In this document: positions 2,373 to 63,108 of the stretch, in pieces | Layout of the letters: the number at the start of each line of letters is the position of its first letter | Position numbering within the stretch: position 1 is the stretch's first letter | Assembly: GCF_000299395.1 (NCBI RefSeq) | Contig: NC_018656.1 | Coordinates: 496,001-560,000 of the forward strand | Direction: 5' to 3' | Origin: Candidatus Nitrosopumilus sediminis | GTDB taxonomy: Archaea > Thermoproteota > Nitrososphaeria > Nitrososphaerales > Nitrosopumilaceae | Length of the DNA stretch: 64,000 bases | Made by a program: the position numbers and the translations under genes | The notes under the pieces: model-generated | Told to the model about the DNA's origin: nothing | Database searches by the model: none | What the model saw: only the letters and a program-made list of their open reading frames with translations

Positions 2373-3962
2373 TTATGTATACTCTGAAAGTGTCTTTGCT
2401 ACTTGCTTTCTTCCTATATCTGAAATAAATGGCCCTATTTTGGGTCCTCTTGAAGTTCCAAGTATTATCTGATATAATATTTTAAAGAAATCTTTTGGTT
2501 GAATATCATTTGATTTTGCGATTTGATATATTGTATTTTGAATATCTTCAAGTTCTTTATCTCCTCCCAATTCATCAACTAATAATTTCAATGCCTTCTT
2601 TGACGTATCATCTAAATCAATTTGGATTTTTTCTTGTTCGTCAAATTCATCTGCATAATTTCCTGCAAGCTCGATGAGTTTTTCTATTTCTGGCTCTGGA
2701 TTTTTAATTACTCCGTAATCTAGTAATTTTTTCATTACTCTTTGTCCTCTGTTTTCTTTGAAGATTTTTGCTAATTCGATTACAAGTCTATAGTTTACAT
2801 GAGTGCTTGATTGTTTTGGAGGGTTTAGGAGATTCACATATTCGTAGAGTCCTTTTGATTTTGTCAGTTTTGCTTGGTTGTCTACTTTGATTCGTCCAAA
2901 GTAAATATCTTCAAGTTCATTATACTCTGCCATTAAAGATGGAATGTCATCAAATCCTAATTCTCTTGCACCTGTAATTCTTTTGTATAATAATAGCAAA
3001 ATTGATTTTGGACTGCCAAATTCTAACCATTTCTGTGCAGTGATTACATTGCCTAATGATTTTGAAATCTTTTTTCCTCCTTTATCAAGAAACATTTCAT
3101 ATTTTACATGATGTGGATGTGGAAATTTCAGAATTTCATCTGCCACCCAGTCATTGACTTTGACTGAATCCATGATGTCTTTCCCATATGCTTCAAATCT
3201 AATGTCAAATGCTGCCCATCTTGCTGCAAATTCTACTTTCCAGGCTAATTTCCCAAGGTCTTTTCCAATGTCTGCTTCTCCTATATGCCCACATCCCTTG
3301 ACTAGCTTTGAGCCAATTTCGGTGTCGTGGCATGTGTATTTTACTTTCTTTTCATCTGCGACATACTCTGTAGCTTCTGCTGTATAGAGTCGATTACAAT
3401 TTGCACATACTGGAAAATATGGCAAATATTTCTGATATTTTTCTTGTCCTACTAGTTCTGAAATTTTCTCTCCTATTTTTGCACTGTTTTGTAATATTGT
3501 ATGGATTTGCTCTTTTAGTGATCCTTGTTTGTAAGTGTCAACTGCTCTTCTAAATTCATATTTTATTCCAACTTTATCTAATCCTTCTAATAGAATACTG
3601 CTCATATGCATTCCGTACGAGTCATGACAACCATAAGGATCTGGTATTAGTGACACTGGTTTTGCAATGTGTTCTTCTAAACCAAACTCTTGCATGCCTT
3701 CTGGAATTTTTCTTAATCCGTCAAGATCATCTGAATACGCAATTAATTCTGATTTGTATCCTAGGTTTTCTAATGCTAGTTTTACTCCGTATGCCCTAAC
3801 TGCATCACCTAAACTTCCTATATGTGGAATTCCAGATGCCCCAAGACCACTTTCTACTCTTAGTAAATCTGTATTTCTTCCAAGAGTTTTTTCACGTTCA
3901 AGTAATTCTGATGCTAACTTATCAATCCAAGTTCCTTTACCGATAATGTCTTGCTCTGTCAT
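2373..3962 (-). CDS. lysS: Lysyl-tRNA synthetase, class I
   Basis: Charges tRNA-Lys with lysine in the cytoplasm. This 529-residue protein is the archaeal class I type, unrelated to the class II enzyme of most bacteria and eukaryotes. The HIGH-type motif is PHIGS near residues 46-50, and the KMSKS-type motif is KISKS at 298-302. Cysteines near 186-189, 211 and 224 fit a zinc site in the catalytic insertion. Length is normal for the family. It lies 7 bases downstream of elp3 in the same operon, linking tRNA wobble modification and lysine charging. Confidence 0.97.
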   Translation of the reverse strand: MTEQDIIGKGTWIDKLASELLEREKTLGRNTDLLRVESGLGASGIPHIGSLGDAVRAYGVKLALENLGYKSELIAYSDDLDGLRKIPEGMQEFGLEEHIAKPVSLIPDPYGCHDSYGMHMSSILLEGLDKVGIKYEFRRAVDTYKQGSLKEQIHTILQNSAKIGEKISELVGQEKYQKYLPYFPVCANCNRLYTAEATEYVADEKKVKYTCHDTEIGSKLVKGCGHIGEADIGKDLGKLAWKVEFAARWAAFDIRFEAYGKDIMDSVKVNDWVADEILKFPHPHHVKYEMFLDKGGKKISKSLGNVITAQKWLEFGSPKSILLLLYKRITGARELGFDDIPSLMAEYNELEDIYFGRIKVDNQAKLTKSKGLYEYVNLLNPPKQSSTHVNYRLVIELAKIFKENRGQRVMKKLLDYGVIKNPEPEIEKLIELAGNYADEFDEQEKIQIDLDDTSKKALKLLVDELGGDKELEDIQNTIYQIAKSNDIQPKDFFKILYQIILGTSRGPKIGPFISDIGRKQVAKTLSEYT

Positions 3963-3969
3963 TTTTTCA

Positions 3970-5556
3970 CTAATTCAATACTTTGGACATGTATGGCCCA
4001 TATAACGAATACCCTAATTTTTGATAATATTCTCTTGTACCTACCGCACTAATTACTAAAATCTTCTTTGCGTCAAATTCTTCTTTAGATATTTTTTCAG
4101 CTTCTTTCATGAGATTCTTTCCTAATCCTGAATGTTGAATCTCATCGTCTTCTTTCTCTCCAAGCTTCAATGATTTTCCATAAACATGAATTTCTCTTAC
4201 GATACATGTGTCTTGATCAATTTCATCCCTGTGTGCATTGATACTTGGTTTTCGTAATCTCAAAAATCCATAAATTGATTCTTCTTTGTCTTCATAAGAC
4301 AAGAATACTTCTTTTCCTCCTGATGAATCATAATCAATTCGGTTTAATTTTATCTCACCTACATCTGCTTTCTTGTTGGATAATCCTGCTTCTCTACATC
4401 TGATACATTTACATGAAAATCCCTGTTTGGCGAGATTTTGATGCACAATTTGTCTCAAGTTCCCTGATTTTGGACCTGCAATGATCTCTTTGGGCGAAAT
4501 TTCCCTTTGAACTCTCATGATTCTCACCCATTTTGGTATGTTTCTTTTAGCTTCTGTTAGAACTTTGATCATATCTTCATCAGAATATGGTGTGTATTTT
4601 CCTTGTTTGTATTCTTCATACAGTGGGGTATTTTCAATTACTAGTGAAGGATAAATCTTCAACATATCTGGACGCAACTCTGGATCTGAAAATAATTTTT
4701 TAAAATCTGCGATATCTCCTTTTGGTGTCATTGTTGGTAATCCTGGCATCATATGTGCAACGATTTTGTACCCTGCATCTTTTGAAATTTGAAATGATTC
4801 TACTACATCATTGTAGTTGTGTCCTCTATTGACTATCTCATAAACCCGTTCTTGTAATGATTGAACTCCTATCTCTATTCTTGTAATTCCATAACTTAAC
4901 ATTAAATCAACATGTTCTTTTTTGCAATAATCTGGTTTTGTTTCAATTGTAAATCCTACGTTTCTTATTGAGGCGTGTTCATTGTTTGATTTTGCCTCTT
5001 CCAAATCTTTTGAATCTATTCCATTAAGTGCATCATAGCATGATTTGATGAACTCTCTTTGATAGTCTTTTGGCATGAAGAGAAATGTCCCTCCTACGAT
5101 CACTATTTCCATTTTGGATGGGTCATGTCCAAATGCAATTAATTTTTCAATCTTTGATGTAATTTGTAATTTAGGATCAAATTCGTTTTCTATTGCATTT
5201 AGTGATGATGGTTCTTTTCCTGTGTAACTATTTGGCGAATTAAATTCAATCCCTCCTGGACAATATGTACAACGTCCATGTGGACATGCATAGGGCTTTG
5301 GCATTAATGCGACTACTGATACTCCTGACGCTGTTTTGGCAGGTTTTCTTAACAATACTTTTTTTAATTTGTCAAAATCTGATTCTTTTGCCATTGACAG
5401 AATTTCATAATTTCTAGGAATTCTTTCAAGTGCATATTTTGTACAAATTTTTATAATTTCTTCTTTAACTTGTTTTTTACTAGGTTCTTGAATTGTTAAT
5501 AGATTCTGAGTGATTTCATTACATGCTTTGGATACCACAGGATCTAACTTATTCAT
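3970..5556 (-). CDS. elp3: tRNA uridine(34) 5-carboxymethylation enzyme, Elp3 family
   Basis: Radical-SAM plus acetyltransferase enzyme that modifies wobble uridine 34 of tRNAs using acetyl-CoA. The iron-sulfur motif is CPHGRCTYC at residues 91-99, the Elp3 signature. The radical-SAM barrel spans about 80-340. A C-terminal GNAT domain occupies roughly 385-528, with the acetyl-CoA loop HSGLGKNLM. At 528 residues it is the archaeal single-subunit length; archaea lack the other Elongator subunits. It is the first gene of the operon with lysS. Confidence 0.96.
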   Translation of the reverse strand: MNKLDPVVSKACNEITQNLLTIQEPSKKQVKEEIIKICTKYALERIPRNYEILSMAKESDFDKLKKVLLRKPAKTASGVSVVALMPKPYACPHGRCTYCPGGIEFNSPNSYTGKEPSSLNAIENEFDPKLQITSKIEKLIAFGHDPSKMEIVIVGGTFLFMPKDYQREFIKSCYDALNGIDSKDLEEAKSNNEHASIRNVGFTIETKPDYCKKEHVDLMLSYGITRIEIGVQSLQERVYEIVNRGHNYNDVVESFQISKDAGYKIVAHMMPGLPTMTPKGDIADFKKLFSDPELRPDMLKIYPSLVIENTPLYEEYKQGKYTPYSDEDMIKVLTEAKRNIPKWVRIMRVQREISPKEIIAGPKSGNLRQIVHQNLAKQGFSCKCIRCREAGLSNKKADVGEIKLNRIDYDSSGGKEVFLSYEDKEESIYGFLRLRKPSINAHRDEIDQDTCIVREIHVYGKSLKLGEKEDDEIQHSGLGKNLMKEAEKISKEEFDAKKILVISAVGTREYYQKLGYSLYGPYMSKVLN

Positions 5557-5612
5557 GAATACTCACACTGATTTGGACATAAATTCGTTAAATAATTTAG
5601 TATAATTGATGC

Positions 5613-6308
5613 CTATCTACGCCTAGTTGTTTTTTTTGCTTTGGAATTTTTTTTAGCTGGTTTTCTCTTTACAACCTTTTTCTTTGCTACTGCCTTTTTA
5701 TCTGGTTTTCTCTTTACAACCTTTTTCTTTGCTACTGCCTTTTTAGATGGTTTTCTCTTTACAACCTTTTTCTTTGCTACTGCCTTTTTAGATGGTTTTC
5801 TCTTTACAACCTTTTTCTTTGCTACTGCCTTTTTAGATGGTTTTCTCTTTACAGTCTTTTTCTTTGATTTCTTTTTTTCATTTTCTTTGAGGTTTTTTAA
5901 TTTCTCAATCTCCTCTTGAATAACTTTGATCTCTTCACGAATGTATTTTTGAGGGTCTAGCTTTGAATGTATGAAATCAACAATTTTCAAATAATCGACT
6001 CCCTTATCTGTACGAACTAAAAATAATTCATTGGAATTTATTGGAACGCTGATAAGTATGGCCTTTTCAAATTCTGTGATTGCTGATCTCTCTTTACCAA
6101 TCTTGTATGCCAAATTAGTAAAAATGTCTCTTTTTTGTATGGCATAATGAATTGACATTTTACTTTCATCTCCGATCAATAATTGTTCTACATTTTCTTT
6201 ATATCCTCCAGAAACTATTTCTCCTTTGACATTTACCACTGCTGCAAACTTTACTTGTGGTAGTAGGTCAAGAACTTGTTTTGTTAATTCATTGTAATCA
6301 GCAGTCAA
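5613..6308 (-). CDS. Thaumarchaeal DUF6659/roadblock-like domain with lysine-rich repeat tail
   Basis: A 231-residue two-part protein. Residues 1-115 form a compact alpha/beta domain (PQVKFAAVVNVKGEIVSGGY) resembling the thaumarchaeal DUF6659 or roadblock-like fold. After a short coiled coil at 120-145, the last 85 residues are built from a 15-residue unit (KKKVVKRKPSKKAVA) repeated four to five times, like histone H1 or bacterial Hc1/AlgP tails. The tail should bind DNA or RNA non-specifically. The start is TTG at 6308. It lies 56 bases upstream of elp3 on the same strand. Confidence 0.8.
   Translation of the reverse strand: MTADYNELTKQVLDLLPQVKFAAVVNVKGEIVSGGYKENVEQLLIGDESKMSIHYAIQKRDIFTNLAYKIGKERSAITEFEKAILISVPINSNELFLVRTDKGVDYLKIVDFIHSKLDPQKYIREEIKVIQEEIEKLKNLKENEKKKSKKKTVKRKPSKKAVAKKKVVKRKPSKKAVAKKKVVKRKPSKKAVAKKKVVKRKPDKKAVAKKKVVKRKPAKKNSKAKKTTRRR
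5659..5873 (-). repeat. 45-bp tandem repeat encoding the lysine-rich tail
   Basis: The plus strand repeats a 45-base unit starting at 5659, 5704, 5749, 5794 and 5839. The first four are full and nearly identical, differing mainly at the Ser/Asp/Ala codon; the fifth is diverged. The unit is a multiple of three, so copy number can change without breaking the reading frame. Confidence 0.95.
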
Positions 6309-6391
6309 TTTTTACTCCTATATTCTCTCTCTACAAACATACCTTGTTGCAGTAATTTTTGTATATAATCTAAGGTGTTTGATTGCTTATT

Positions 6392-7621
6392 CTATGCTTT
6401 TCTCTGCTGCGTCATTGCTTTTTTTTGTTCTTTCCTGTATTCCATTTTCAGCCAAATCGGTGTAATGATTGTGGTCACTGCAACCATTATCACAATTGTG
6501 GAATAAACTTCTGATGTGAGAATTCCTGCTGTAACTCCAACCCCTGCAACAATTAATCCTACCTCTCCTCTGGAAATCATTCCTATTCCTACTCTCATCC
6601 CTTGAGCTTTATTTTTCAAAAAGAACATTGCAGGCAATCCGCAACCAAATAATTTCGTCACAATTGCCACTACAATAACTATTCCACTTAACATCAAAAT
6701 GTTCAGATCTACTGCCCTTAGGTCTACTTGGGCACCGATAATTGCAAAGAATAATGGTGCAAAAATTAATCCTATTTTTCCAATATAGTTCTCTACTTTT
6801 TCAAACACCTTGGTGGTAGAAAGTGCCATTCCCACTGCAAATGCCCCCACAATCGGGGATAATCCTATAGATCCTGCAAGCGCCGCTGCTCCAAAGAACG
6901 ATGCAGTGGCAATACCCTCTACACTGCCTTTTGCCTTCCATAATCTTGGTGTGATGATCTTTGGAATTACAACTACTGCGACAACTAGCATTACGGCAAA
7001 GAATCCTAAAACTTGTAAAATTGTAATTACTACTTCTGTGATGTCAATACTATCGACTCCTCCATCTGATCCTGCAATTGATGATACCACTGATAAGACT
7101 GCAATTGCTAAAATGTCATCGACTACTGCTGCACCTATGATTAATCTAGCTTCTGGAGCTTTGATTTTTCCAAATTCACTTAACACTTGAATTGAAATTG
7201 CGATACTTGTTGCAGTAAGTGCCGTTGCAATCAACATTGATTGTAATGCATCAAACCCAAACATTTGGAATACTGCAAGACCTGCAAAGAATGGAACCAC
7301 AACTCCTAATGTACCAACTGTAAATGATGCTTTTCCTCCTTTAAGAAATTCTTTTGGTGTCATTTCCAATCCTGCCATAAACAAAATTACTATAGCTCCC
7401 ATTTCTCCGAGAATTTTGATTTCATCATTAATGTGAAGTAATTGTCTTCCATCTACTACAAAGAATGCACCTAGTGCAAATGGACCTACGATCATTCCAG
7501 CTAACAATTCTCCTAAAACAATTGGCAGTTTCAATCTTAGGAACAGCTCTGCCATTAATTTGGCTGCAAAAAGAAGAATTCCTACACCGATAATTGTTTC
7601 AATGAATTGTGCCTCTGCCAT
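6392..7621 (-). CDS. Cation:proton antiporter, CPA2 family
   Basis: A 409-residue polytopic membrane protein with about 12 hydrophobic segments and the CPA2/KefB-type fold. Typical family features are the segment PIVLGELLAGMIVGP near residues 33-47 and the ion-binding region AAVVDDILAI near 164-173 with the adjacent aspartate pair. There is no C-terminal TrkA-N domain. It probably exchanges Na+ or K+ for H+ across the cytoplasmic membrane, useful for pH and salt balance. It appears to be a single-gene unit. Confidence 0.92.
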   Translation of the reverse strand: MAEAQFIETIIGVGILLFAAKLMAELFLRLKLPIVLGELLAGMIVGPFALGAFFVVDGRQLLHINDEIKILGEMGAIVILFMAGLEMTPKEFLKGGKASFTVGTLGVVVPFFAGLAVFQMFGFDALQSMLIATALTATSIAISIQVLSEFGKIKAPEARLIIGAAVVDDILAIAVLSVVSSIAGSDGGVDSIDITEVVITILQVLGFFAVMLVVAVVVIPKIITPRLWKAKGSVEGIATASFFGAAALAGSIGLSPIVGAFAVGMALSTTKVFEKVENYIGKIGLIFAPLFFAIIGAQVDLRAVDLNILMLSGIVIVVAIVTKLFGCGLPAMFFLKNKAQGMRVGIGMISRGEVGLIVAGVGVTAGILTSEVYSTIVIMVAVTTIITPIWLKMEYRKEQKKAMTQQRKA

Positions 7622-7692
7622 CTTTTCCTGATAGGTGTTGAAAAATCTGTCATATAAGATGATATTGTATTGAAAATTATTTTGTTGTTAAA

Positions 7693-8715
7693 TTAAGCAA
7701 TTTTTATAGAATTTATAAAAACACCTTTTTTAGAAACGATCTGTCCTATCTCCTGACTCACAATCTTATGTTTTTTGAATATTGATTTGATTCTGCTTAA
7801 CTGATCTTTTGGAGCAACCACGCAGAATCCTACTCCCATGTTAAATGTCTTGTACATTTCTTCTGCTTTCACTCCTTGTTCTTCTATTAACCCCATGATA
7901 GGTGGAATTTTAGGTAGTGAGTCTATCTCATATCCTATGTTTTTGAGGCGTAGCAACTTAGTAAATGACCCTCCCGTAATATGTGCAAATCCATTGACTT
8001 TGCATTTTTGATTGATCTCAAGAACTGGTTTGGTATAGATTTCTGTAGGTTTGAGCAATGCATCCCCTATAACTCCTACCCCTTTGACTTTGTCTTTTAC
8101 GGAATATTTTGTTAATAATGCTTTTCTTGCAAGTGAGTATCCGTTTGAATGAATTCCTGAACTATTTACTCCGATAATTACATCTCCTGCTTTGATTTTA
8201 TTTCCAAGAACCATCTCTTTTTTATCCAATAACCCTACAACCATCCCTGCTAAATCAAACGCAAATCCTTTCCCTTCGATTACATCTGGCATGATTGCTG
8301 TTTCTCCTCCCACAATTGGCATTGCTGATTTTTTTGCACCTGTTACCAGTCCCTCTACAATTTTTTTGAATATTGTTACATCATTTTTATTTGCAGCAAT
8401 ATAGTCTACAAATGAAATTGGTGTTGCGCCAATACAGATTATATCATTTACATTCATTGCAACACAATCAATCCCAATCGTGTTGTATTTCTTCATCATG
8501 TTTGCAATCACTACTTTGGTTCCAACACCATCAGTATGTGTTGCTAATAGTTTTCCCCCCGGAATTTCTACAATTCCTGCATAATGACCAAAACCGTGTG
8601 TCATCTTTGCTTTTCTCTGGAGTTTGTGAGTTGATGCAATTAATTTTCCAATTGCTTTTTGGCTTTGTTTAATTTTAGAAATATCCACACCTGCTTTTTT
8701 GTAGGTTAGAGTCAT
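7693..8715 (-). CDS. purM: Phosphoribosylformylglycinamidine cyclo-ligase
   Basis: Purine biosynthesis step 5: converts FGAM to AIR with ATP. The start is taken at ATG 8715 (MTLTYKKAGVDISK), giving 340 residues, the normal PurM length; the frame is open further upstream but would run through the end of the neighbouring PAC2 gene. Recognisable motifs include the DGVGTK loop, FVDYIA, the GGETA motif and HITGGS. The PAC2 gene ends 49 bases upstream on the same strand. Confidence 0.95.
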   Translation of the reverse strand: MTLTYKKAGVDISKIKQSQKAIGKLIASTHKLQRKAKMTHGFGHYAGIVEIPGGKLLATHTDGVGTKVVIANMMKKYNTIGIDCVAMNVNDIICIGATPISFVDYIAANKNDVTIFKKIVEGLVTGAKKSAMPIVGGETAIMPDVIEGKGFAFDLAGMVVGLLDKKEMVLGNKIKAGDVIIGVNSSGIHSNGYSLARKALLTKYSVKDKVKGVGVIGDALLKPTEIYTKPVLEINQKCKVNGFAHITGGSFTKLLRLKNIGYEIDSLPKIPPIMGLIEEQGVKAEEMYKTFNMGVGFCVVAPKDQLSRIKSIFKKHKIVSQEIGQIVSKKGVFINSIKIA

Positions 8716-8764
8716 AGTTTGTTGCGCATCTGTTATGAATAAAAGAATTTGCCCTGTGTTTCGA

Positions 8765-9490
8765 TCACATGTACATTCCAGATATCTCTTCTCGGTGCTC
8801 TGCATATTTCTGAGATAATTCGCTGAATTCGGTATTGATTCTATCTTTTTGTTTTTGTAGTTCTGATGTATCAATTTTCATATCGTAAAATCGATTTAAT
8901 GCTTCAATCAGTGTTGCCGCTGCTGCTGAATCTGGTGCCTCTTTGTTTGCCCTTGCCAATAGAGTTAATCCTTGAATTTCTCTTACTAGGCACTCATTTA
9001 GTATGCCTCCTGGAATCCCTGTGATGAATCCCTGTGGAATCATGCTGATGTCTTTGTCTGCCATTGTTCTAACTAGGTCTTCTTCTGCTGCACAGTATGC
9101 TTTACCGTCGTGTTCCGTACTTGCAACTCCGTCTAAAATCACAATTTCTTTGGAGCCTTTCTGAGCTGCCCAATCTAAAATGGATGATACTAGCGTGTAT
9201 AGACCCTCCATTCTCAATGTTATCTCACAAATAATTGCACAAACGGTTCCTTCTTTATTTACATAAAATCGAAATGGATGTCGTAATCTACCTCTCATAA
9301 AAACAGTTGATGGTGGAAGATACTTTGATCTCATCACTGCTATTTCTTGCATCTCTAATTCGGTAATGATGTGATTTATTGCAACTGGTCCTACTAGACC
9401 TGCACCAACAAATCCTGCAAAAATTATGGGATTTTTTAATTCGGTCTTTTTGATTTCAAAGACTTCGGCTTCAGGAAATTCTTTTTGCAC
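8765..9490 (-). CDS. PAC2-family protein (archaeal proteasome-assembly-chaperone-like), HbYX C-terminus
   Basis: A 241-residue PAC2/DUF75 family protein. Its first 200 residues show the family pattern: IIFAGFVGAGLVGPVA near the start, the IPQGFITGIPGGILNE loop and the APDSAAAATLIEAL helix. A C-terminal coiled-coil arm (205-237) follows. The last three residues are Met-Tyr-Met, matching the hydrophobic-Tyr-any docking motif used by proteasome activators such as PAN and archaeal PbaB. A role as a 20S proteasome chaperone or activator is inferred. A second PAC2 gene at 54803-55516 has the same kind of tail. Confidence 0.88.
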   Translation of the reverse strand: MQKEFPEAEVFEIKKTELKNPIIFAGFVGAGLVGPVAINHIITELEMQEIAVMRSKYLPPSTVFMRGRLRHPFRFYVNKEGTVCAIICEITLRMEGLYTLVSSILDWAAQKGSKEIVILDGVASTEHDGKAYCAAEEDLVRTMADKDISMIPQGFITGIPGGILNECLVREIQGLTLLARANKEAPDSAAAATLIEALNRFYDMKIDTSELQKQKDRINTEFSELSQKYAEHREEISGMYM

Positions 9491-25206: not shown

Positions 25207-28200
25207 ATGAATCGTAATGTGCCAATAGTATTTTCTATCCTCCTTTTTGTAGGAATTTTAGTACCTGCATATGCTCAAACTGCTGACCATGTTGTAATTA
25301 ACGAAGTCGACATTAATCCGCCTGGTGATGATTCTAAATCCGTCTCTGAATGGATAGAACTGTACAATCCCACTGACTCTGATATTGACATGAGTGGATG
25401 GAGCATTGCCTCTACTACAACCCTTAAAAAAACAATGACCATTCCATTTGGAGCTGTAATCAAACCGGGACAATTTCTAACGTATTCTTACCAAAGTGTT
25501 TGGTTTACCGATGTTAGTGAGTCAGTTGAACTTAGAGATGAAAACAATGTTGTAATTGACAAGACTCCTGCAATTTCTGATATCAAAAATGATTTTACTT
25601 CTTGGCAAAGAATCTATGATGGTTTTGATTCTGATAGTTCCAGTGATTGGAAGTTTGTAACTTCAACTGCTGGATCTTCTAATGGCAAATTAGTCCAAAC
25701 ACAAACCCTTGATGGTGTTAGTGTAACTGCTTCATCTAACAAACCATTCTATACCTTTGGAGAAGTAGCAACAATTTCTGGAAGCGTTTCTAAAGAGGTG
25801 TTTGTTGTAAAGCCTTTCTTTAAACCTGAACAAATAGTAGTTACTATTTCTGGACCTAATTTTGATAAAACTGTAAACCTTTATCCTGATCTTAATCTGA
25901 ATTACAAAACAACCCTTAGTTTACATCAGGTCTTGGGAATTAATGAGGGCGATTATGACGTAACTGTAAGTTATGGTGGTGCCACTGATACCGCAAGTTT
26001 TTCCGTAGGGTATGAAATAATTCAAAAGGATATCAAACAGGATGGAGAACTAAGTATTGTCACTGATAAATCGCAATATATTCCGGGACAGACCGTTTAC
26101 ATCACCGGTTTTGCTGATGAGATTATTCCTTTTGAGGGGATGAAATTCACTGTAACTGATTTTAATGGAAAGCTGATCTATAATGGAAATCTCTTTCCAA
26201 CAAACGGTAAATTCATGACTAATATTTTCATAACTACTGTAAATCCTGGTTATGGATCATATGATATTGTTGCAGAATATTTTGACAAATCTGCATCTGC
26301 ATCGTTTGAGGTTGTAAAAGATATCAAAGAAGATGTTCCTATATCTTTATGGTCCGATAAGAAAGCATATGGTTTGGGTGATGTGGTAAAAATTTCTGGT
26401 AGAGTAAACAAAGTTTTTGTCAATACGTTGGATTTGGAAATTGTTCAGACAAAACAAACTTCACTTTTGAGTTCCTCTTCAAGTAGTACATCTGGATTTA
26501 AAATTTTAGATGCTGTAACTCTCAAAGGTGACGGTTCATTTGATTACTCTTTTACCATTCCAAATAATTCTCTTAGATTGGGTGATTACAAAATTTCTGT
26601 ATCTAAAGAAATTGGTTCTGCAAAAATTATAATTCCTGTTGTATCTGATCCTGAAAACTATGTTGCCTCTGATACGCCCTTGACAGTTGAAATGGATAAG
26701 GCCGTCTATGAATTTGGTGATACTATGATGATTAGTGGTTTTGTAAAGGATCCTTATAGTAATACCAGTTATAGCTCTGGTACAGGGGTAAAAATTTCTA
26801 TTTCTCATGAAGATGGAACTCCTTTGACAATTGAATCCTTGTCAAAAAAGAACCCTGCTGATATAGGATATTCTTTTACTGCTATTCCTGAAACTTCTGG
26901 TAGATACTTTTTGCAAGTTGATGTGAACAAAAACATCTTCACTAAAGGTAACTATCTTGTAAAATCCCAATATTCTGGTCATACTGCAGTAAATCTATTC
27001 TCCATTGAGGATTCTCTTGATTTGAAAGGCGGACCTGTAATTACACTTGATAAGGAAGTATATGGATTGGGAGAGACTGTTTATCTCAATGGTATTGCGC
27101 CATTAACCGGTATTAATTCAGTTGAGATTTCACTTACAAAACCTGATGGAAGTGTTCGCAATTCTGGTACAACAATTGACAATCAACGTTTCTCATGGTC
27201 TTGGGTTACTCCGATAAGTGAGAAACCTGCAAGCTTGAAACTTGATGCTTCTGAAAGGGACATACAAAAATCAAATTTTGGAGTATACAAAATTAGGGTT
27301 TCAATTGGTTCTAATAATCTAGATCTTTTCTTCAAAGTTTCTGCAGATCCTGAAAATGATTCATTATCCAAAACACCTCTCTTTGTATCTACTGAAAAAT
27401 CATTGTACAAGGCTGGTGAAAAATTAAAAGTCATTGGAAATGTCATTAAACGTCAACAAGGTACTGAAGGCCTTGTAGTACCTGAACGAGTTACTATCAA
27501 AGTACTTGATGGTAAATTCCCTTTCAAACAAATCCATGAATCTTCTGTTTACCCCAATCAAGGTGGTGACTTTTCAAGTCTCTTTGAATTACCAGCTACC
27601 ATATTTAGTGAAGGTCTCTATTCTGTAAAAGCATCTTACTCTAAGGCTTCTGCAAAGTCTGAATTTAGTGTGACAAATGATTTCATTTTCGGCATAGACG
27701 CTGATTTGACTCTTTTAGTAAATACTGACAAATCTGAATATTATCCTGGCGATGTTGTTTCAATTAGTGGAAAACCAAACAAGCTAATCTATCTTGAAGG
27801 ATTTGATGTGAGTATAATCAAGAAATCTGAAACTGAAATTACTTGTGGCTCGTTTATTTGTGGAAAAAATACAGGACCTGTGACTACAATTCGTCCAAGC
27901 CCTTCTGGATCTTTCACACATCAATTTGTAATTCCTGATAAAGCAACATCTATTGGAACATACGAAGTAACAGTTGATGCTGATTTTGAGAAAAAATCGG
28001 TCAAATTCAATGTTGTTGAAAAACCAATTGTTGAAAAATCTAACACTGTAATTGAGAAAGAAAACAGAATATCTGAGAAGATGATCTCAATTACTACTCA
28101 AGATAAAATTTCTGAAGATGTAGTTATTTCACCTAGAGTGATTTCAGGCTCTTTGATTACTCCTGCAAGAGGAGATGAATCTAATGTGAACCTCAAAGTA

Positions 28201-28476
28201 TCAACTGAATTTGGCACGTGTATTATTGGATCTGATGCTGATTGTTTGGTAAAAGAATCTACCAGAAAACCAGGCCAAATCTATGATGTTGTAGATGTAG
28301 ATGGAATAAGTCTTAAGGTAAGATATAGTGGCCCTGATGTACGTTTGGAAAAGTTCAGCATTTTACCTGAATCTGAAAATACATTTTTGCCTGATGCCAA
28401 TTGGAACGTCGAGGTAATCAAGGATGAACAAGTTACAAGATTTTATTATAAAGTTACATACAAAACATTAGAGTAA
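25207..28476 (+). CDS. Large secreted surface protein with lamin-tail domain and repeated Ig-like domains
   Basis: A 1089-residue exported protein. Residues 1-24 are a signal peptide. A lamin-tail (LTD) domain follows at about 27-160, marked by VINEVDINPPG, EWIELYNPTDSDIDMSGW and TSWQRIYDG. The rest consists of about eight beta-sandwich repeats, each opening with a motif like DKSQYIPGQTVYITGFA, DKAVYEFGDTMMISGFV or DKSEYYPGDVVSISGKP. No C-terminal membrane anchor is visible. An S-layer-associated or matrix role is plausible. Confidence 0.85.
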   Translation: MNRNVPIVFSILLFVGILVPAYAQTADHVVINEVDINPPGDDSKSVSEWIELYNPTDSDIDMSGWSIASTTTLKKTMTIPFGAVIKPGQFLTYSYQSVWFTDVSESVELRDENNVVIDKTPAISDIKNDFTSWQRIYDGFDSDSSSDWKFVTSTAGSSNGKLVQTQTLDGVSVTASSNKPFYTFGEVATISGSVSKEVFVVKPFFKPEQIVVTISGPNFDKTVNLYPDLNLNYKTTLSLHQVLGINEGDYDVTVSYGGATDTASFSVGYEIIQKDIKQDGELSIVTDKSQYIPGQTVYITGFADEIIPFEGMKFTVTDFNGKLIYNGNLFPTNGKFMTNIFITTVNPGYGSYDIVAEYFDKSASASFEVVKDIKEDVPISLWSDKKAYGLGDVVKISGRVNKVFVNTLDLEIVQTKQTSLLSSSSSSTSGFKILDAVTLKGDGSFDYSFTIPNNSLRLGDYKISVSKEIGSAKIIIPVVSDPENYVASDTPLTVEMDKAVYEFGDTMMISGFVKDPYSNTSYSSGTGVKISISHEDGTPLTIESLSKKNPADIGYSFTAIPETSGRYFLQVDVNKNIFTKGNYLVKSQYSGHTAVNLFSIEDSLDLKGGPVITLDKEVYGLGETVYLNGIAPLTGINSVEISLTKPDGSVRNSGTTIDNQRFSWSWVTPISEKPASLKLDASERDIQKSNFGVYKIRVSIGSNNLDLFFKVSADPENDSLSKTPLFVSTEKSLYKAGEKLKVIGNVIKRQQGTEGLVVPERVTIKVLDGKFPFKQIHESSVYPNQGGDFSSLFELPATIFSEGLYSVKASYSKASAKSEFSVTNDFIFGIDADLTLLVNTDKSEYYPGDVVSISGKPNKLIYLEGFDVSIIKKSETEITCGSFICGKNTGPVTTIRPSPSGSFTHQFVIPDKATSIGTYEVTVDADFEKKSVKFNVVEKPIVEKSNTVIEKENRISEKMISITTQDKISEDVVISPRVISGSLITPARGDESNVNLKVSTEFGTCIIGSDADCLVKESTRKPGQIYDVVDVDGISLKVRYSGPDVRLEKFSILPESENTFLPDANWNVEVIKDEQVTRFYYKVTYKTLE

Positions 28477-28512: not shown

Positions 28513-29004
28513 ATGAAATTACAAGTTTTGATGTTTTACCAAGATGATCCTAAAAAATGCACAGCTGCTAAAATGGTAAAATTTGGCCTCGCTCAAAATA
28601 TTAAAAAAATTGGTTCAAAAGGATTGGTCTTAGATCCATTTTCTGAAAAAACTTTACTGCCTAAAGATAAATCATCAATTCATTCCATTATAGGAATTGA
28701 TTGCTCTTGGAATCTTGCAGATCAGGCATTTTCTAAAAAATTTGATGGTATCAAAAGAAAACTTCCTCCATTATTGGCTGGAAATCCTGTAAACTATTCC
28801 AAATTGAATAAATTAACTACTGTTGAAGCATTGGCCGCATCATTATTTATTTTGGGTTCTAAAGAACAAGCCTTAGAATTGCTTGATAAATTCAAATGGG
28901 GTCATACATTTTATGAACTCAATCAAAATCTTCTAGAGGAATATTCTAAACTTGAAAATGAATCTCAGATAGAATTGATTTTAAAAGATTATGGTCTGAT
29001 TTAG
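28513..29004 (+). CDS. tsr3: 16S rRNA aminocarboxypropyltransferase, Tsr3/DUF367 family
   Basis: A SPOUT-like enzyme that transfers the 3-amino-3-carboxypropyl group of SAM to a modified uridine in small-subunit rRNA. Family motifs include DPKKCTAAKMVKFG near the start, IIGIDCSWN, and KLPPLLAGNPVNYSKLNKLTTVEALAA split here by position (about residues 85-111). Length (163) fits archaeal members. It overlaps the convergent substrate-binding-protein gene by four bases. Confidence 0.93.
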   Translation: MKLQVLMFYQDDPKKCTAAKMVKFGLAQNIKKIGSKGLVLDPFSEKTLLPKDKSSIHSIIGIDCSWNLADQAFSKKFDGIKRKLPPLLAGNPVNYSKLNKLTTVEALAASLFILGSKEQALELLDKFKWGHTFYELNQNLLEEYSKLENESQIELILKDYGLI

Positions 29005-31454
29005 TTTCTTCTTTTAAGATATACTACAATTCCTAGAATAACAATAATTGGTGCAATCCAAATCCAATACGTTGATTCGTTTTCGGAAAATTCTGTGTTT
29101 TCATAACTGCTAATCGGTAATTCAACAATGTTGTCTGTAACAATGAAACTTGATTCATAAAAATCAGGCTTTAAAACTGAGTTTGAAATTGCAAATATTT
29201 TGATATTGCTTGATCCTATGCCTAGTTTACTGGATTCTTCTGATGGTATTTTGATGACTGTGTTTGATTCTTTAACATTTTGTGTCTTTGAAATAATTTT
29301 TTCTCCTTGATTATTTGTCAAAAAATATAATATTGAATCTGAATTTTTCGTCTCAATAGTTAACGTAATCTCTTCTCCTCGCTGAATTGATTTTTTCATA
29401 TCTATTTTTTCAATTATTGGAAATTCTGTGTTTTCAAATCTTTCCCATTCTCCTTTTTTGAATGGATATGAATCATCATCAAATGCAGATACTTTGATGG
29501 TTCTTGATTCTGGTGAATATGATTCTAAATAAAACGGACCATTACTTATTACAGCATGATGTTTATTTTGAATCCAACTTATTGAAGAATCATATCTGTT
29601 TTGATAATATTCTGAATCTTGGTTATTTCCTTTTAATGCTTCAGGGATGTATTTTTTTTCTTTGAATTCTTGCAAATAGCTTTTAATCGTATTTGCATCA
29701 TTAGGAATGATTAATGATATCCAGTTTACATTTTTGCTAGTTGCACCTGATCTTGAGAATGACACTTTTCTATCTATTACTGCGTTTTCCATTGCAGAAG
29801 TGATTTCCCAAGGAACAGAGCTCCACAAAACTGCCCAATCCGCAATCTCTCCTTCATCAAAATGCCAATAATCTACATACACTTCAATTGTATCCTCATC
29901 AATTTGGTTTATTCCTTTGATTGTCTGTATGTTTTGAGCAGCTCTTGGCGTAAATTCGGTGTCAAATGATTTATCATTTTCATCTGTCTGAGTTCCCCAC
30001 TCTATTGTAAAATACAATGAATGCAAAACATCATTCATGTCCATCTTTTCGCCATTATGCCAATTGCTGAATTTAAAATCAAATGTAACTCTGCTGGTAG
30101 CCTGTGCATCTTCATCTACATTTTCCCATTTTTGCAATACGGGACTCCAAATTTTTGCTTCTTGTGGAATGTTGATTTTTTCATTAGGTCCCTTTGTTTT
30201 GACTTCCCATGTTGCTCTCACTGGAAACGTTTCACCTGTAAAGGGATGTTTGAACGTTGCAGGATCTGAAATTATGCCCCAAATATGTCTGCTGTAACTA
30301 TCTGTTAATCCCATAATTGGATTCCATGCTCCTTGGTAGATTTGTTTGACTCCTATAACTAATTCATCATGATTGCCTTTGGCATTAATAGGAGTAAATC
30401 TGCTTGGAACACCTGCTCCAAAATCATTTACAACCCCACTGATTTTTTCATTGGCAACATATTGATCTATTTTACTTGCCAAAAAAATTCTGACTGACTC
30501 ATTTACTCCTTCAACAACAGATTCTTGAATTAATTCTGTTCTTTGTTCTTCTGTTTCAAAATCACCGGTGTATATTTTTTGAGTGAGAGTATCTAATTTG
30601 TCATTTTTGTAATTCCAATATGTTGGATCATTGAATCCTGGCATATTTGAAAACCAAGGTGAATACATCTGACCTAGTCCTACTGAATCATATCTTACAA
30701 ACGCAGAACGGCCCCATCCTTCTGTGTATAAATTCCATTTTACATCTGAAGGATTCGAACCATAAACTACAACAAATGCTTTATTCAAATCCCCAAAATC
30801 TTTTTTTATTGAAAATCCTATTTTTTCTAACTCTACTGATAGTATTTCCCCTATGGATTTTCTTACTGGATCATCGCTTCTGATAAAAATTGTGATCTCT
30901 ATTGGAATCCCTTTCATTTCCCACTTTCCATTGTTTTTGATTGCTCCTTTCTCTTCTAATGCTCTTGAGATGATTTTTTCTGCAAGTGTGGGATTGTATT
31001 TGAAATTAAATGTCTCAAGTTGTTCCACAACTGTAAGATATTCCGGATCTGATGGGCCATAGTATGAAATGATTGGGGAACCATATCCTCCCATCAATTC
31101 ATTTACAATTAGCTTTCTATCTACTAGGTAATTTAATGCAAATCTGATATCCTGGCTTGAAAAAGGATTGAATTTTTCTGATTCTGCGGGATTCATTAGA
31201 ATACTATAGGAACCCCCTGTAGAATCAAAAATCTGCAATCCTTCAACGTTTTGCTTATTTTCTAATCTGTCAGGTGATATTGTATAGTAATACAAATCAA
31301 GATTTCCATTACGTACTTCTTCTAATGCTGTATTTTCATCCAAATATTGTATGAATTTCACTGAATCAAAAAATGTATTTTTTTCTGCAAATGATTCATT
31401 ATACATTATTGACGATACTGAAAAAGCTAGCATGATAACTAGCATAATTTTCAT
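29001..31454 (-). CDS. ABC transporter substrate-binding protein, family 5 (peptide type), with permuted lobes and C-terminal anchor
   Basis: An 817-residue exported protein with a signal peptide (1-23) and a C-terminal membrane helix plus KRRN (793-817). It belongs to the DppA/OppA-type family, but the order looks unusual. Residues 25-350 resemble the usual second half (GNLDLYYYTISPDRL, then DIRFALNYLVDRKLIVNELMGGYG with the conserved D-R). Residues 370-680 resemble the usual first half (ELVIGVKQIYQGAWNPIMG, FDFKFSNWHNGEKMDMNDV, GPFYLESYSP). An Ig-like segment follows. The matching ATPase may be the gene at 62143-63108. Confidence 0.88.
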   Translation of the reverse strand: MKIMLVIMLAFSVSSIMYNESFAEKNTFFDSVKFIQYLDENTALEEVRNGNLDLYYYTISPDRLENKQNVEGLQIFDSTGGSYSILMNPAESEKFNPFSSQDIRFALNYLVDRKLIVNELMGGYGSPIISYYGPSDPEYLTVVEQLETFNFKYNPTLAEKIISRALEEKGAIKNNGKWEMKGIPIEITIFIRSDDPVRKSIGEILSVELEKIGFSIKKDFGDLNKAFVVVYGSNPSDVKWNLYTEGWGRSAFVRYDSVGLGQMYSPWFSNMPGFNDPTYWNYKNDKLDTLTQKIYTGDFETEEQRTELIQESVVEGVNESVRIFLASKIDQYVANEKISGVVNDFGAGVPSRFTPINAKGNHDELVIGVKQIYQGAWNPIMGLTDSYSRHIWGIISDPATFKHPFTGETFPVRATWEVKTKGPNEKINIPQEAKIWSPVLQKWENVDEDAQATSRVTFDFKFSNWHNGEKMDMNDVLHSLYFTIEWGTQTDENDKSFDTEFTPRAAQNIQTIKGINQIDEDTIEVYVDYWHFDEGEIADWAVLWSSVPWEITSAMENAVIDRKVSFSRSGATSKNVNWISLIIPNDANTIKSYLQEFKEKKYIPEALKGNNQDSEYYQNRYDSSISWIQNKHHAVISNGPFYLESYSPESRTIKVSAFDDDSYPFKKGEWERFENTEFPIIEKIDMKKSIQRGEEITLTIETKNSDSILYFLTNNQGEKIISKTQNVKESNTVIKIPSEESSKLGIGSSNIKIFAISNSVLKPDFYESSFIVTDNIVELPISSYENTEFSENESTYWIWIAPIIVILGIVVYLKRRN

Positions 31455-31502: not shown

Positions 31503-32189
31503 ATGTTATTATCTCCTAAAACCTATATTTCTAAAATGCCTCAAAAATTACAATTGAAAATTCATCCTAAAATGATAGCCGGATTGCAGGGAATTATTCC
31601 CGGCGGCGTGTCTGTTAAAGATTTTTCTGCTGTTACAAAAATGAATCCCGATGATTCTAAAATAATTTTGGATGAATTTATTAAAAATAATATTGGAACA
31701 AAACAAGATGATTTTTATTATTTTGAAGTTGGTGATAAATTAAAAATTGCAGTATCTTTACTTGAACATGGTTCACCAATTGATGAAATTTCTATCGCAT
31801 TGGATTGGAGGGATTTTGAAGGATTAACTGCTGAAATATTATCTGAAAAAAATTTTGCAGTATTAAAAAATATGATGTTGACAAAACCTAGGATGGAAAT
31901 AGATGTGGTAGGAATTAGACTTGGGATTGCAATTTTAATTGACTGCAAACACTGGAAACAATATAGTACATCTGCATTATCTACTGCTGTTAAAAAACAA
32001 ATTGAAAGGACTAAACAATATGTCTCAAAAACTCCTGGCGCCATTGCCGTGCCTGTAATTGTGACATTATATCAAGACAAAATTGATTTTATAGAAAATG
32101 TGCCTATTGTTCCTATTTTTCAATTTGCATCATTTATTGATGAATTTTACGGAAACATTGATCAAATGAAGACTATAGGAACAGACTAG
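31503..32189 (+). CDS. Restriction-endonuclease-like (Mrr/PD-(D/E)XK) protein
   Basis: A protein of about 217-228 residues. The N-terminal third is a small helical or winged-helix-like domain. The C-terminal part (about 98-215) is an Mrr-type nuclease fold: WRDFEGLTAEILSEKNFAV is the family helix, MEIDVVGI supplies the acidic residue and ILIDCKHW the D-x-K catalytic core. No methyltransferase lies nearby, so a repair or general DNA-processing role is as likely as restriction. Start is ATG 31503 or ATG 31536 (MPQKLQLKIHP). It overlaps the convergent DUF2070 gene by 17 bases. Confidence 0.82.
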   Translation: MLLSPKTYISKMPQKLQLKIHPKMIAGLQGIIPGGVSVKDFSAVTKMNPDDSKIILDEFIKNNIGTKQDDFYYFEVGDKLKIAVSLLEHGSPIDEISIALDWRDFEGLTAEILSEKNFAVLKNMMLTKPRMEIDVVGIRLGIAILIDCKHWKQYSTSALSTAVKKQIERTKQYVSKTPGAIAVPVIVTLYQDKIDFIENVPIVPIFQFASFIDEFYGNIDQMKTIGTD

Positions 32190-61600: not shown

Positions 61601-62146
61601 TCTACTAGAAAGAATTCTCTAGAAGCAGAAAGAAATTCCATCGTTAAATTTATTGAGGATATTGAAAAGGATAAACGCCAAACTTTCTTGGATGCTTTTG
61701 ATAAAGTCGATAAAGAGATTCGTTTGATTTTCAATAAAATGACTGAAGGAAATGCTTGGTTAGAGCTGCAAAATGAAGATGATTTGTTTAATTCTGGAAT
61801 TTCTTATTTGATTCAGTTTCCAAATAAACCAAAAAGAGAGTCTACTTCCATTAGTGGTGGCGAAAAAACTTTAGCTGCCATTGTGTTTGTTCTAGCGTTA
61901 CAAAAACTGAAACCTTCACCATTTTACTTGTTCGATGAAGTTGATGCCCATCTGGATGCTCCAAACTCTGAAAGACTAGCAAAAATTTTAGAAGAAAGAT
62001 CAAAAGAGAGTCAGTTTATCATGGTGTCTCTAAAAGATTCTGTAATACAAAAGGCGAAACTGATCTATGGTGTATTTCCAAAGAATGGGGTCTCAAATGT
62101 TGTTACATACAAAGATAAACGTCTACCTTCAATGAAAACTTCCTAG
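58616..62146 (+). CDS. smc: Chromosome segregation protein SMC
   Basis: A 1176-residue condensin ATPase that compacts and segregates chromosomes. The Walker A motif is GPNGSGKS (35-42). Two long coiled-coil arms (about 165-510 and 680-1010) flank the hinge (about 520-660, GLVYEMISWDKKYERSMLAV). The C-terminal head has the ABC signature SISGGEKTLAAIVF and Walker B FYLFDEVDAHLDA. A 16-codon frame (58567-58617) ends on the SMC start as TAATG. No scpA or scpB is in the window. Confidence 0.97.
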   Translation: MSLVHVKKVEIFGFKSFGFKNTTVQFEPGLVSISGPNGSGKSNILDAIIFAMGENKPKVMRVDKLRSLIHDIEGNRRGPKMARSSVHFDNSDRKIPVDSDVVEITREMDANGENTYYLNKKKTNRSHILDLLDMANAGLGQLNAVQQGTVTRISEFTSEEKRKTIEDLIGLSYFDDKKTESVKQLDEADRRLEIALAKMGEIKKRIDELEEERNQKLRHDILERELNRYKAIAAANKMKVISSQKDSKESALRELTAEITTLDAQRSTLREEIGSLETEKTKLMAEANDYNRAKASLDAEISTAMEQYEIDNTAISASKKRIEQINSRLPEIQNEINDINQARSDIDTQIQKIKESIEETNVKKSKINDDLQVIDSQRNKILTEQSEAAAKKSEIDNKIKTLTGQLNDAKLKLSKVLHEQDESKIKINANTVKFSELENDIVQLTGYQSKLETMLNNHNASIQELKSRIEKLQIRKSKIHNDMDELGLILEKSSKAANQYESKIKTVKGFMHEDYTVAKLKEDADKLGIEGLVYEMISWDKKYERSMLAVSSDWIKAIVVKDFATLLGIAEVARSRKLPKLKIIPLDAIPKFTLSLPKETGVLGILSNYVTCDPAYSSLKTFLFGNIVLTENRESAYNISQKGYKSVTIDGEFFEAKGGTVVIDIDSKISKLTKLISMSSDIDGLFQSISLIKKYMLKKKYSLKKLEESIQSYDDRLSISENSLTSTTENLANLKSRIASAINMKEQLTKRISELTSRNNIIESEVNTCESHIESLQERIAIVEENYASGEQDRIANELSRINIKKSDIEKLYTTIMNEYRDKSSQQTTLQTQYNREKSQSDRLEDESKSLNIERQELETKIQELEKQKEPKNAILVSLREKEQELIATSGSSIGHLKEFDDKLKVLSEQDRELTKQINTFERQSDSLNRDLHDLTENETKLQQILSAFGFDKNMETFDVESIVQGLTAELSSLNALNAKAPETYLEVSYGYRSMSTRKNSLEAERNSIVKFIEDIEKDKRQTFLDAFDKVDKEIRLIFNKMTEGNAWLELQNEDDLFNSGISYLIQFPNKPKRESTSISGGEKTLAAIVFVLALQKLKPSPFYLFDEVDAHLDAPNSERLAKILEERSKESQFIMVSLKDSVIQKAKLIYGVFPKNGVSNVVTYKDKRLPSMKTS

Positions 62147-63108
62147 TCTAATTTTACAAAACATGCAAAATAATGATCTTCGTTTGTCATTTTCAGATCT
62201 GGCTCTTCAACACATTTCTCGATAGCATAAGGACATCTGTCTCTAAATTTACATCCATGTTCAGTGTCAATACTTGCAGGTTCATTTATCCTGATTTTTC
62301 TTTCTCTGTGTAAGTTTTCTGGGTCTGGCTGTGAAATTGCATCAATCAATGCCTGAGTATATGGATGCCTTGGTTTGGTTAGAACTTGGTCTATTGGCCC
62401 AATTTCCACAATTTTGCCCTTATACAATATCCCTATCCTTTGACCAAAATATCTTGCAGTAGCCAAATCATGTGTGATGTAAATAAATGAAATGTTGTAT
62501 TTTTTTTGTAATTCCTGCATCAACTCAAGCATTTCTGCTCTAATTGAAACATCTAGCATCGAAACTGGTTCATCTGCAAGAATTACTTTGGGTTTTAGTG
62601 CAAGTGCTCGTGCTAATACCACTCTCTGTCTTTGTCCTCCTGACAACATGTGTGGATATCTTTTAACAATATCTTCAGCAGGTTCAAGTTTTACTTCGTG
62701 CAAAACATCGATAACTCGTTTATCTCTATCTTCTTTGCTTCCTATTTTGTGTATTTCAAGTGGTTCTGATACAATCTGGCCTATTTTCATTCTTGGGTTT
62801 ATGGAGTCGTATGGATCCTGATGAATCATCTGACAATTCATTCTAATTTTTTCCAAATTTTCTTTTTGATCATCAATTTCTTGTCCATCAAAAAATATTT
62901 TTCCAGAATCTAACTCAATTGATTTTAAGATTAATTTTGCAATAGTAGATTTTCCAGATCCTGATTCTCCAGCTAAAACAAAAACTTCTCCTTGTCTTAC
63001 GGAAAATGAAACATCATCCGTTGCTTTAACTGTGATGGACTTTGCTCCGAACATTCCTTTTTTAGTGAAATATTTTTTCAAATGCTCTACTTTTAGTATT
63101 TCATTCAT
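62143..63108 (-). CDS. Oligopeptide ABC transporter ATP-binding protein (OppF/DppF-like)
   Basis: A 321-residue ABC ATPase. Walker A is LAGESGSGKST, the signature is MLSGGQRQRVVLARAL and Walker B is VILADEPVSMLD. The C-terminal oligo_HPY region has a cysteine motif (CKFRDRCPYAIEKC) typical of oligopeptide transporters. It powers peptide or nickel uptake with membrane subunits encoded outside this window. The binding protein at 29001-31454 may be its partner. It overlaps the SMC gene by four bases, convergently. Confidence 0.94.
   Translation of the reverse strand: MNEILKVEHLKKYFTKKGMFGAKSITVKATDDVSFSVRQGEVFVLAGESGSGKSTIAKLILKSIELDSGKIFFDGQEIDDQKENLEKIRMNCQMIHQDPYDSINPRMKIGQIVSEPLEIHKIGSKEDRDKRVIDVLHEVKLEPAEDIVKRYPHMLSGGQRQRVVLARALALKPKVILADEPVSMLDVSIRAEMLELMQELQKKYNISFIYITHDLATARYFGQRIGILYKGKIVEIGPIDQVLTKPRHPYTQALIDAISQPDPENLHRERKIRINEPASIDTEHGCKFRDRCPYAIEKCVEEPDLKMTNEDHYFACFVKLD

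Follow-up and report, generated by a model that had tools for sequence, protein, structure and literature searches.

In this study, we describe a circularly permuted solute-binding protein encoded in a 64,000-nucleotide stretch of the genome of Candidatus Nitrosopumilus sediminis (contig NC_018656.1, positions 496,001 to 560,000 of the forward strand), which is called the window below and whose numbering is used unless genome positions are mentioned. The open reading frame (ORF) at 29001-31454 on the minus strand has an uninterrupted frame of 817 aa and, judged by its sequence, encodes a single family-5 (cluster C) solute-binding domain whose order is circularly permuted. Since the order of the domain is reversed, the protein is better classed as a variant of the SBP_bac_5 family than as an ordinary member. 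It is very likely the receptor (OppA) of a single Opp-type ATP-binding cassette (ABC) importer.

Swapped halves of the binding domain

The Pfam profile SBP_bac_5 (PF00496) matched residues 21-250 of the window protein with 94 bits against a curated cut-off of 32.4, and the match was limited to positions 139-349 of the 368 in the profile. For this profile, a second half starting straight behind the signal peptide is already unusual. The best match in the Protein Data Bank (PDB) was 7fi3, the OppA of Thermococcus kodakarensis (phmmer, overall E 1.5e-50), which was hit by two domains in swapped order, without overlap and each significant by itself: residues 372-664 aligned with 7fi3 18-309 (i-Evalue 3.5e-29) and residues 26-284 with 7fi3 319-601 (i-Evalue 1.6e-20). 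When compared by eye, residues ~315-363 resembled the C-terminal end of 7fi3 (about 677-722). A profile of the permuted relatives rewritten in canonical order gave one continuous alignment with 7fi3 (hmm 8-588, 412 bits); in native order the alignment of the same profile split in two.

The swap recurred against E. coli DppA and canonical archaeal solute-binding proteins (SBPs) in profile-profile comparison using hhalign. The first segment aligned with DppA 237-528 (E 3.9e-24), and the second with columns 107-210 of the canonical SBPs, equal to DppA 50-168 (E 1.2e-6). In DppA terms the cut falls at about precursor residue 230-234, directly behind the 'GTGPFxL' strand, and ISNGPFYLESY in the second segment of the window protein corresponds to IGTGPFQLQQY of DppA. 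The new ends lie between 7fi3 residues 309 and 319, and the former termini meet at about residues 361-367 of the window protein. Both family-5 halves are present and cover the whole domain once, in an order other than the canonical linear one. Two other arrangements were ruled out: a non-homologous N-terminal domain, because the hhalign match identifies the N-terminal part as the canonical second half, and two complete family-5 domains, because each half was found once.

A preliminary description of this DNA, made from the letters alone, had placed second-half motifs first, behind the signal peptide, and first-half motifs later. Both were found in that order: the 'VRNGNLDLYY' segment and the DIRFALNYLVDR helix (residues ~47-113) come first, directly behind the signal peptide, and NWHNGEKMDMNDV (residues ~464-476) stands further along the protein. 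The check it had proposed on the segment order of profile matches gave the second half first and the first half second. Its suggestion of a circular permutation retaining one complete binding fold is supported by the sequence, each half being present once. Its phrase 'lobes in swapped order' needs one correction. In the known topology of the family, each lobe is built from both halves of the domain, so halves, and not strictly lobes, are swapped.

The features of the window are listed below.

29001..31454 (-): whole gene, circularly permuted, membrane-anchored OppA-type solute-binding protein, 817 aa
31386..31454 (-): predicted signal peptide, residues 1-23, MKIMLVIMLAFSVSSIMYNESFA; hydrophobic N-terminus, last letters SFA, same position in relatives, cleavage site inferred
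30363..31385 (-): residues 24-364, the half of the family-5 domain that comes second in canonical members, here in first place; matches 7fi3 319-601, DppA 237-528 and Pfam SBP_bac_5 139-349
30354..30374 (-): junction of the old C-terminus and the old N-terminus, about residues 361-367; like the end of 7fi3 before it, 7fi3 18 onward from residue 372
29421..30362 (-): residues 365-678, the half that opens the family-5 domain in canonical members, here in second place; matches 7fi3 18-309 and DppA 50-168, with the ISNGPFYLESY motif
29130..29420 (-): putative beta-sandwich (Ig-like) stalk, residues about 679-775; AlphaFold2 (AF2) pLDDT about 70-87, partial Foldseek matches, fold tentative
29016..29072 (-): predicted C-terminal transmembrane anchor, residues about 795-813, then basic KRRN; hydropathy peak 2.2
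62143..63108 (-): OppF/DppF-type ATPase (ABC_tran and oligo_HPY), probable partner of the receptor; homologue in a permuted-receptor operon in related families

An Ig-like domain and a membrane anchor had also been proposed at the end of the protein. The anchor stands, as residues 795-813 form a clear hydrophobic segment. The Ig-like fold corresponds to a model stretch of moderate confidence only: the stalk was the one region modelled at that level, and among the beta-sandwich proteins that Foldseek matched in part were SoxYZ and superoxide reductase. We therefore treat the Ig-like beta-sandwich as a tentative assignment.

Two neighbours of the receptor gene were observed. A 228-aa protein at 31503-32189 (+) had no Pfam match and looks restriction-endonuclease-like by eye, and a 1089-aa secreted protein with lamin-tail and MG2 (macroglobulin-type) domains is encoded two genes away at 25207-28476 (+).

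Distribution and conservation across the phylum

The profile search of the home genome returned one PF00496 protein, the window protein. Relatives of it were present in 17 of 21 near genomes, some PF00496 protein in 277 of 300 genomes of the class, and the permuted-family profile matched 290 of the 397 genomes sampled from the phylum, some of these matches being weak and over one half only. For calling the order, separate profiles for the two halves were run on all loci, and two-half proteins were counted as distinct. Among 135 distinct two-half relatives, the comparison of archaeal homologues that had been suggested found 132 with the second half first, spread over about 50 family codes, and three in canonical order. 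The cut site was identical throughout the permuted relatives. In shorter proteins of 716-731 aa (L187-L189) the second half also came first, with the other half weakly recognised. On these alignments the permuted order is the rule, not the exception, in the phylum, and the window protein is an OppA by homology and context.

Identities between pairs of proteins, calculated half by half, correlated with r = 0.89 (98 sequences), which implies that the two halves have travelled together. Comparison of the window gene with four close relatives gave pN/pS of 0.11-0.15 (first segment) and 0.16-0.23 (second segment), indicating purifying selection, while the stalk and anchor were laxer (0.35-0.61). 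No relatives were found in the viral contigs scanned. Plasmid searches yielded no order for a further outgroup: the sole hits were weak ones between the first half and Agrobacterium SBPs, and locus L215 had none.

Three loci deserve separate mention. L183 (G119:C104, ORF 2820-9125 on the minus strand), a 2102-aa relative from the same family, carries FG-GAP repeats, SdrD_B, a permuted family-5 domain (710-1357), and Peripla_BP_6 and ANF_receptor, which are type-I periplasmic-binding folds; by its domain matches it is a giant multi-receptor surface protein. A full-length family-5 match lies inside a 2456-aa open frame (G167:C1:986977-988467), a possible multi-domain or tandem receptor. L034 (BMAH01000059.1), on a contig titled Gammaproteobacteria bacterium BBSC-SA02, has a gene 55% identical to the window protein; it nests among the ammonia-oxidising archaea in the tree, and the contig is probably misassigned and archaeal.

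Probable history: one permutation and one reversion

The three canonical-order exceptions (L186, L207 and L208, from genomes G348, G410 and G620) all carry the family code f43. They fall inside the permuted clade with a bootstrap of 100, both in a quick tree of 98 proteins and in a careful tree of 30 proteins. This nesting implies that the canonical order in f43 is apparently one later reversion from the permuted state. The f43 proteins do not behave as outgroups. When the tree is rooted on 7fi3, it is best read as the simplest history, one permutation and one return. The rearrangement would thus have a single origin, early in the archaeal phylum, and a single reversal, in f43. Both the phylum-wide spread and the single reversal go beyond the preliminary description.

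We consider it likely that OppA underwent a single ancient permutation that became fixed at an early stage of this phylum, to which the ammonia-oxidising archaea belong. The permuted form would then have been the norm in the phylum, with a later return to the canonical order in one family, and receptors of both kinds would work in operons of one type. This history is weakest at its deep root, which hangs on a single canonical outgroup, 7fi3. Together with the fairly long branches of f43, this lone outgroup for the subfamily leaves some room for the canonical order being ancestral in f43 and the permutation having occurred independently in several other lineages. We regard that as improbable, because L208 has 48% identity with the permuted L209, no less than with its own canonical kin (47-48%), the nesting is fully supported, and a tree forcing all permuted proteins together was rejected (lnL 57.6 worse, p-AU 1.75e-5). 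Independent permutations would also require four or more events at the same site.

The way in which the order arose was considered as well. A permutation typically arises when a gene is duplicated and its two copies fuse, and fusion of fragments is a known route to an apparent one. The preliminary description had offered a 'fusion of two broken genes' as its second option, and such a route is indistinguishable from duplication and trimming in the present sequences. A fusion of two separately broken paralogous genes, in place of permutation of one gene, is nevertheless very improbable: the two halves share one history across the 98 sequences and agree by distance when taken separately, they add up to a single canonical domain, give or take about ten residues at the ends, and the breakpoints are common to all relatives. 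An assembly artefact or pseudogene is practically excluded by the intact ORF, by an order that recurs across dozens of families in closed as well as draft genomes and by the purifying selection.

Transporter context and proposed function

In three genomes (G164, G018 and G172) the permuted receptor gene comes first and is followed by OppB, OppC and two ATPases, forming A-B-C-D-F operons, and in G075 it adjoins OppBC and one ATPase. The reverted f43 receptors also head oppABCDF-type operons. The home genome has a single adjacent OppBC pair (G000:C1 614850-616831) and two oligo_HPY ATPases (OppD/F), at genome positions 558212 (window 62143-63108) and 1029944. Oligo_HPY ATPases were present in all 30 tested genomes with a receptor and absent in 8 of 20 genomes without a detectable PF00496 protein. 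This co-occurrence supports the pairing of receptor and ATPases modestly, because the eight ATPase-less genomes fall in two groups. Four genomes of the same genus (G058, G142, G170 and G211) had both oligo_HPY ATPases and no detected PF00496 protein; their receptor may have been lost, or they may use an unrecognised one.

By sequence, the original N- and C-termini are connected by the short linker at about residues 361-367, and the new termini were opened in the loop behind the GPFxL strand of canonical members. The following mechanism is proposed from the family and the linked genes. The secreted receptor would be tethered to the membrane by the beta-sandwich stalk and the C-terminal transmembrane helix, close on its ligand between the two lobes, dock on OppBC and hand the ligand over, with import powered by the two oligo_HPY ATPases. 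The ligand is probably a peptide, because the nearest solved homologue, 7fi3, holds an endogenous pentapeptide according to its PDB title.

For DppA, the capture-and-deliver mechanism and the charged dipeptide contacts R383 and D436 have been described (PMC12136057). By alignment, R383 plausibly corresponds to the invariant R192 of the permuted family.

Several observations weigh against the assignment as a peptide receptor of one importer. D436 of DppA has no unambiguous counterpart, so that peptide binding in the manner of DppA is tentative, and the ligands of family-5 proteins include sugars, nickel chelates and haem. The receptor gene of the home genome stands apart from the permease genes, and the importer parts there are scattered. 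The pairing is not strict either, as the ATPases are kept in 12 of the 20 genomes without a detectable PF00496 protein. The fold itself is predicted from sequence homology: the AF2 models, made in line with the structure prediction that had been suggested, were poor, because the sequences in the alignments came from one narrow group only (17 for the full protein, pLDDT 49; 19 for the isolated domain, pLDDT 46). Foldseek with such a model did return 7fi3 as top match, although partial and with a TM of about 0.14, so that it serves as a consistency note only.

An alternative, which we hold to be rather unlikely, is a real permutation with a ligand other than a peptide; oligosaccharides, metal chelates and further small solutes, known from other systems of the Opp family, would be candidates. 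Some archaeal Opp-family systems import sugars, nickel and chitin-oligosaccharide binders sharing the fold appear among the weak and partial Foldseek matches, and the importer might serve a chemolithoautotroph with only one Opp system for purposes other than nutrition; the lack of a clear counterpart of D436 points the same way. On the other side, the homologue that carries the pentapeptide is the nearest solved one both by sequence and by Foldseek, and the permease and ATPases are of the Opp/Dpp type, though those models also cover nickel systems.

Comparison with known systems

The T. kodakarensis OppA (7fi3; Yokoyama et al., Proteins 2022, as cited in PMC12136057) is an archaeal Opp receptor of similarly large size, and both halves of its binding domain are homologous to those of the window protein over nearly their full length. 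It differs in having the canonical order, whereas the window protein starts at the equivalent of 7fi3 319, ends its domain at that of 309 and continues from there to the anchor through a putative beta-sandwich stalk. E. coli DppA and SBP_bac_5 (PF00496, cluster C) share the conserved segments and presumably the two-lobed fold; compared with DppA, the window protein has a different circular order and a far larger sequence, and the R383/D436 contacts are only partly matched.

Engineered biosensors and the proposed 'domain dislocation' between types of periplasmic binding protein (PBP) indicate that PBP folds tolerate moved termini. Those cases are either engineered or concern the order of core strands in other PBP classes; the present case is a natural family-5 permutation kept across a phylum. 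Searches of the open-access literature turned up no description of a permuted binding protein, whether of family 5 or from archaea; most subscription papers lay outside them, and novelty is therefore not proven. The window protein goes unmentioned in a glycoproteomics paper on ammonia-oxidising archaea.

Implications

Few importer receptors are as common as the family-5 binding proteins, for which both annotation and structural biology presume one linear order. A phylum-wide permuted form, with a natural reversion, would explain why such proteins are partially recovered in profile searches, and the annotation of nutrient uptake in archaea, including the ammonia oxidisers, would be affected. 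The matched permuted and unpermuted receptors offer material for testing folding, docking and the moved point of the membrane tether. If the proposed history is true, nature would have performed a two-way experiment on how much the position of the chain ends and of the anchor matters for the receptor of an ABC importer.
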